Origin: Candidatus Methanomethylophilaceae archaeon
Lineage (GTDB): Archaea; Thermoplasmatota; Thermoplasmata; Methanomassiliicoccales; Methanomethylophilaceae
DNA length: 64,000 nt
Assembly: GCA_017461225.1 (NCBI GenBank)
Contig: JAFTYV010000058.1
Location: 1-64,000, forward strand
Direction: 5' to 3'
The translations under genes were made by a program, and so were the position numbers. Position 1 is the stretch's first letter. The number at the start of each line of letters is the position of its first letter. The notes below the pieces were generated by a model that saw only the letters and a program-made list of their open reading frames with translations, did not search any database and was not told the origin of the DNA. Positions 39,112-48,594 of this stretch are shown piece after piece.

Positions 39112-39217
39112 GCCGGGGTGGCTCAGCCTGGTGGAGCGTCGGACTCATAGGGTTCTGGTCATATAGACCTCTTCCAGGGAAATCCGAAGGTCATGGGTTC
39201 GAACCCCATTCCCGGCA
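39112..39217 (+). tRNA. elongator tRNA-Met (anticodon CAT) with 32-nt intron
   Basis: Exon 1 is 39112-39149 and exon 2 is 39182-39217, giving acceptor GCCGGGG/TCCCGGC, anticodon stem TCGGA/TCCGA and loop CTCATAA with anticodon CAT. The intron (39150-39181) is at the canonical 37/38 position, where archaeal splicing endonuclease cuts a bulge-helix-bulge. The G1-C72 start is that of the elongator, not the initiator, tRNA. CCA is encoded at 39218-39220. The intron end could shift by one base because of an A run. Confidence 0.92.
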
Positions 39218-48422: not shown

Positions 48423-48594
48423 GGGGGTATAGGCTAACCTGGCAGACTGGCGGGCTCCAGTTATTGAGCGTGATTGTAAATGGGTTTGCTGACAGTTGAT
48501 GATTAACTGGAGCGATGACTCATTGATTCCGCGGGAGGTAGCTCCTCCCGTAGGTGGAAACCCGCTGACGGGGGTTCAAATCCCTCTGCCCCCA
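48423..48594 (+). tRNA. tRNA-Trp (anticodon CCA) with 99-nt intron
   Basis: Exons 48423-48460 and 48560-48594 form acceptor GGGGGTA/TGCCCCC, anticodon stem GCGGG/CCCGC and loop CTCCAGA with anticodon CCA (48457-48459). The intron (48461-48559) is at the canonical 37/38 position. The discriminator is A; CCA is not encoded (CCT follows). The intron holds a box C/D guide RNA, listed separately. The charging enzyme trpS is at 14875-15996. Confidence 0.94.
48465..48522 (+). ncRNA. box C/D guide RNA inside the tRNA-Trp intron
   Basis: In order: terminal stem TGAG (48465-48468), box C GTGATTG (48470-48476), guide GGGTTT, box D' CTGA (48489-48492), box C' TTGATGA (48496-48502), guide CTGGAGC (48507-48513), box D ATGA (48515-48518), closing stem CTCA (48519-48522). 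The fifth base before D' pairs with tRNA position C39; the fifth base before D pairs with C34. Guides for 34 and 39 in this intron are known from other euryarchaea; box C and box D deviate from consensus here. Confidence 0.8.

Follow-up and report, generated by a model that had tools for sequence, protein, structure and literature searches.

In H. volcanii the intron of tRNA-Trp(CCA), 103 nucleotides long and located at position 37/38, is a dual box C/D guide RNA that directs the methylation of C34 (Cm34) and U39 (Um39) in its own tRNA (PMC7994747, PMC7714728, PMC11408192). The corresponding RNA of Pyrococcus, sR50, shares the intron position, the dual guide and the two targets, C34 and position 39 (PMC7994747, PMC7714728). 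Deletion of the H. volcanii intron abolishes both methylations without an effect on growth (PMC11408192). For P. furiosus tRNA-Trp, methylation of C32, C34 and C39 is predicted, while most predicted sites were undetected in the tRNAs analysed (PMC7668247), and elsewhere tRNA-Trp is listed with 'Cm34 and Um39 (or Cm39)' (PMC6313347).

The window, i.e. the complete stretch of 64,000 nucleotides analysed here, contains an intron of this H. volcanii/Pyrococcus kind, and the mechanism proposed for it is already known. A reading made from the sequence alone (hereafter the sequence-only reading) had proposed a box C/D RNA in this intron whose targets in its own tRNA are C34 and position 39, and had stated that such self-targeting is established in other euryarchaea. 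It is indeed established in a few of them, and the comparative analysis below supports the proposal. The same reading had pointed out a C in place of U at position 39. Position 39 is indeed C in the window and U in H. volcanii, but a C there is not unusual, as Cm39 is already on record.

The whole tRNA-Trp(CCA) gene spans 48423-48594 on the forward strand, as do all its parts described below, just downstream of a tRNA-Arg gene and a small open reading frame, which we take, reading by eye, to encode something like ribosomal protein eL41. Exon 1 (48423-48460) holds the anticodon CCA at 48457-48459, with C34 at 48457 and G37 at 48460, and exon 2 (48560-48594) begins with A38 (48560) and C39 (48561). 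The intron (48461-48559) is 99 nucleotides long, like that of H. volcanii about 100 nucleotides, and occupies the canonical position 37/38; the anticodon stem GCGGG/CCCGC closes across it. Neither ARAGORN nor Rfam at its gathering threshold calls the gene, presumably because of the long intron, and the covariance model built in the present analysis (R1) scores it at 197 bits. At a relaxed threshold, the Rfam matches over the intron are at chance level only, the best box C/D family being sR3, whose 14.6 bits fall far short of its cut-off, 41, and the intron therefore lies outside every existing Rfam family. Another intron-containing gene of the window, tRNA-Met(CAU) at 39112-39217, is found by Rfam and missed by ARAGORN. 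It shares the canonical intron position and bulge-helix-bulge splicing, but its intron has only about 30 nucleotides and, unlike that of tRNA-Trp, no noted box C/D RNA.

The D-stem of the tRNA-Trp (GGCU/GACU) contains a C12.A23 mismatch (48434 and 48446). It is repeated in class families f1, f9, f14, f15, f27 and f31, mostly together with U13.G22, and relatives without it have either G12-C23 with U13.U22 or a genomic U12-A23. The mismatch may simply be tolerated, it may be removed by C-to-U editing at C12, or the pairing may be slipped, with C12-G22 and U13-A21 formed and A23 left as a bulge.

The guide RNA is flanked by a bulge-helix-bulge at 37/38, as in H. volcanii and Pyrococcus. Its 3' side is at 48554-48559, where the core GTGG faces C32, U33, C34 and C35 and is followed by the AA of the three-nucleotide bulge; the core helix has one mismatch, C34.U, and the cut falls before A38. 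According to pair counting in 40 order members, the C32-G and C35-G pairs are invariant and U33 stands opposite G or A. Downstream of the C/D module, and before the 3' splice site, there is a second hairpin, GCGGGAGG-TAGCT-CCTCCCGT (48531-48551), conserved in the order with changes on both sides in five of the seven pairs counted in the same 40 members; it is a point of difference from the H. volcanii and Pyrococcus introns. One extra G is present at 48553-48554, adjoining the bulge-helix-bulge core (GTAGGTGG in the window, GTAGTGG in sister genomes), and is either a genuine insertion or a mistake of the assembly.

Within the intron, box C (GTGATTG, 48470-48476), box D' (CTGA, 48489-48492), box C' (TTGATGA, 48496-48502) and box D (ATGA, 48515-48518) follow each other in the order of an archaeal dual box C/D guide sRNA. 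A four-base-pair terminal stem, formed by TGAG (48465-48468) and CTCA (48519-48522), joins boxes C and D. All of these elements had been recognised in the sequence-only reading, and all are present. Among the 40 order members, three of the four stem pairs show changes on both sides, and the canonical G6-C1 pair between C' and D' is constant.

The D guide, TAACTGGAGC (48504-48513, with the core CTGGAGC at 48507-48513), pairs with GCTCCAG^TTA (48454-48463) and has as the fifth base upstream of box D a G opposite C34. The earlier reading had this register right but saw only the core; the duplex is in fact 10 base pairs long without a mismatch, and it crosses the 5' splice site, covering the first three bases of the intron. 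The D' guide, GGGTTTG (48482-48488), pairs with AA^ACCC (48558-48563) in a six-base-pair duplex (GGGTTT) that spans the 3' splice site and, just as had been proposed, the fifth base upstream of D' is a G opposite C39. In both cases the base to be modified therefore stands opposite the N+5 position, and the two guides are addressed to the same positions of their own tRNA as in H. volcanii and Pyrococcus. When the intron was dinucleotide-shuffled 20,000 times, 21 of the resulting sequences carried a guide to C34 of 7 base pairs or more upstream of NTGA and 89 carried one to position 39 of 6 base pairs or more; none carried both.

Of 100 genomes from the genus, family and order, 86 have the tRNA-Trp locus, yielding 68 distinct complete genes. 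A protein-similarity scan of named genomes, made with a gene that Firmicutes share, matched mostly bacteria; its archaeal matches include Candidatus Methanoplasma, Methanomassiliicoccaceae archaeon (COG_1) and 'Thermoplasmata archaeon SIG9', which places the window in the order Methanomassiliicoccales. On several of these relatives' contigs the same tRNA-Trp gene adjoins the query gene. The gene covariance model matched 147 of 150 class genomes and 189 of 194 phylum genomes, some of the weaker matches being other tRNAs, and 151 phylum introns from dozens of families were parsed.

Of the 68 distinct order introns, all but one share the same D guide core, CTGGAGC (67 of 68); the exception is G053, where the module is lost. 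Across the phylum the core reads CTGGAGC in 130 and CTGGAAC in 11 of 144 introns. The base of the guide that faces intron base 2 forms a standard pair in all 144 (AU 104, GC 18, GU 17, CG 2, UA 2, UG 1), a result reached in none of 5,000 shuffles; these and the following shuffles ignore the kinship of the sequences and so overstate the significance, although identical pair changes turn up again in different families. For intron base 3, 136 of the 144 introns are paired against 124 expected (0 of 5,000 shuffles). Since the intron bases paired with the guides are absent from the mature tRNA, selection acts on the pairing with the precursor.

Over the complete structure, pair counting in the 40 distinct order sequences gives 98.8% paired cells, compared with 89.0% in shuffles and about 50% when the partners are slid. 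The search for compensatory changes across the order, suggested together with the original proposal, thus came out in its favour: the C34 guide is conserved, and the terminal stem, the k-turn and the guide-target pairs are compensated. Unconserved guide pairing in related introns had been named as what would speak against the proposal. The D guide is conserved, and the D' guide is weakened in some genera.

Within a box C/D k-turn, base 6 of box C is paired to base 1 of box D (PMC7994747). Here the terminal motif GUGAUUG/AUGA departs from the RUGAUGA/CUGA consensus, and the internal motif UUGAUGA/CUGA is near it. The 6-1 pair of box C/D k-turns is usually G-C. The sequence-only reading had noted that both terminal boxes are off consensus, which is correct, but the two departures compensate each other, as U6 of box C (48475) and A1 of box D form a Watson-Crick pair in place of G6-C1. 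Judged by sequence, the rest of the motif has the tandem sheared GA pairs, the U-U pair and the three-nucleotide bulge with a U expected of a k-turn (PMC7994747). The U-A pair at 6-1 separates the window intron from the consensus.

In 40 distinct order sequences the 6-1 pair is UA 29 times, AU three times, CG three times, another combination five times and never GC. Among 128 distinct phylum introns it is UA in 79, GC in 16, CG in 10, AU in 7 and unpaired in 16. Standard pairs thus occur in 112 of 128 phylum introns against 71.9 expected, and in 0 of 10,000 shuffles, which again ignore kinship, was this number reached. The CG and AU states each appear in more than one family, and the neighbouring U5.U2 also co-changes in places (C-G, A-U, C.C). 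This covariation shows that different Watson-Crick pairs can stand in for the usual 6-1 pair of the k-turn; sRNA finders that rely on the consensus and insist on CUGA would pass over such intron RNAs. In families f14 (L213-L217 and L254) and f13 (L211, L212 and L253) the core of the D guide is retained, and boxes C and D and their spacing are rearranged (e.g. GCGCGG in the D region).

We consider it very probable that the intron of the pre-tRNA-Trp is a dual-guide box C/D sRNA, which would direct 2'-O-methylation of C34 and C39 on the unspliced precursor, before splicing. The intron structure, the N+5 registers, the pairing across the junctions and the compensated k-turn are supported by sequence and covariation. 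Assembly of the RNP, methylation, the order of the steps and action in cis or in trans are proposed by analogy with studied relatives, above all H. volcanii. L7Ae would recognise the k-turn formed by C and D as well as the k-loop of C' and D', with Nop5 and fibrillarin assembling on the same RNA. The D guide, through its 10-base-pair duplex over the 5' splice junction, would place C34 for 2'-O-methylation, and the D' guide, through its six-base-pair duplex over the 3' splice junction, would do the same for C39. The duplexes would then yield to the bulge-helix-bulge, with splicing following modification. With intron bases in both duplexes, and with both competing against the bulge-helix-bulge, modification would have to take place on the unspliced precursor. 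The genome of the window encodes both fibrillarin and Nop5, and other box C/D sRNAs are present in it. Against this reading weigh the undetected sites in P. furiosus, the altered D' guides described below and the 16 phylum introns with a broken 6-1 pair.

A broader version of this reading, which we put forward only tentatively and think rather unlikely to hold in full, is that throughout the phylum both guides have stayed complementary to intron bases at the two cuts, that the guide duplexes and the splicing structure are therefore mutually exclusive, so that methylation gates splicing (the wobble base is marked and the guides are released first), and that the terminal k-turn has moved from G-C to different, compensated pairs, with G-C retained by the free sRNAs of the same genome.

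An intron that guides C34 only is an improbable alternative, in which the D' half would serve as a k-loop for structure, with no real constraint on its pairing to position 39. Of the 67 order introns whose D guide is intact, 53 keep the D' guide GGGTTT and 14 have it altered (GAGTTTG, GAGCTTG, GAGGTTG, GGGTAGG, GGGTACG and others), one intron (L121) has a D' guide without a match to position 39, and the D guide is unchanged in all of these. Against this stand the full six-base-pair match at N+5 in the window and the G opposite C39 at the N+5 position in 122 of 129 phylum introns. Further, in 113 of the 129 (UA 73, CG 27, AU 13) base -3 of the D' guide forms a pair with the final base of the intron, where 54.5 are expected and none of 5,000 shuffles reaches the observed number; box D' was located independently of complementarity to the target for this count. 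The D' guide is less constrained than the D guide and is eroded in some genera, and because of this weakening the C34 function is the better supported of the two. We regard it as very improbable that the complementarity serves the folding or splicing of the pre-tRNA, as a helix rivalling the bulge-helix-bulge, with the C/D boxes merely binding L7Ae. Both duplexes do span splice junctions and overlap the bulge-helix-bulge core, and the covarying intron bases are never part of the mature tRNA. However, the spacing obeys N+5 exactly at both C34 and C39, the sites demonstrated for H. volcanii, boxes C' and D' are conserved although a simple helix could do without them, and deleting the intron in H. 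volcanii removes both methylations and leaves growth unaffected (PMC11408192).

It is hardly credible that the off-consensus boxes belong to a decaying, non-functional guide retained by descent. Both GTGATTG and ATGA do depart from consensus, a truly degenerate intron (L085) exists in another member of the family, G053, whose genome is about 79% complete, and G349, from outside the class, has an intron of 41 nucleotides (L300) without guides. However, the D guide is invariant, and because the U6-A1 departures compensate each other and covary, the boxes form a compensated k-turn and not a decayed one. Decay elsewhere coincides with undetected fibrillarin, whereas the window's genome has fibrillarin and Nop5. 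Fibrillarin was found in 185 of 194 phylum genomes, and was not found in G053, G031 and G372 (same family) and in G349, nor was Nop5 in G031 and G053; these genomes may have lost the box C/D system, with completeness as the limiting factor. As a lead, loss of the guide after loss of the enzyme fits G053 and G349, both incomplete drafts; against it, G252, G353, G359 and others have a normal intron and undetected fibrillarin. In genus g2, fibrillarin was found in none of four genomes and Nop5 in none of three. A genus-wide loss of the C/D system in g2 was rejected, as G044, which shares this genus with G053, still has a box C/D sRNA (L351) that is intact and syntenic; this also weighs against the lead.

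With the dual-guide mechanism and Cm39 already known, what appears new relative to the literature surveyed is that this dual-guide intron is demonstrated in Methanomassiliicoccales and in the phylum at large, that its terminal k-turn is compensated without G-C, that covariation extends across the two splice junctions and that the guides are constrained to different degrees. In effect the phylum provides a natural mutagenesis, whose covariation shows that it is the precursor before splicing which both guides recognise, and that the guide for the wobble base is held far more tightly than the one for position 39. Why the C34 guide is so strongly conserved deserves an explanation, given that H. 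volcanii loses its intron without an effect on growth (PMC11408192). As Methanomassiliicoccales has cultured members, Cm34 and Cm39, and their loss with a weakened guide, are directly testable.

The same genome also carries free-standing box C/D sRNAs (the L334 and L345 families), which resemble the intron RNA in the C-D'-C'-D order, the k-turn and k-loop and the N+5 rule. Unlike the intron RNA, they have a canonical RUGAUGA/CUGA terminal motif, lie outside tRNA genes and carry other guides. The pattern used to find them required TGATGA and an internal CTGA but no terminal CTGA, and their terminal CTGA is therefore independent of the search. One of these sRNAs, at G000:C6:44555-44604, has canonical boxes and, with its homologues (L334, L351-L374), the D guide GACGGGCGAG, which presumably resembles the complement of CGCCCGUC near the 3' end of 16S rRNA; it is conserved in 24 of the 29 genomes tested.
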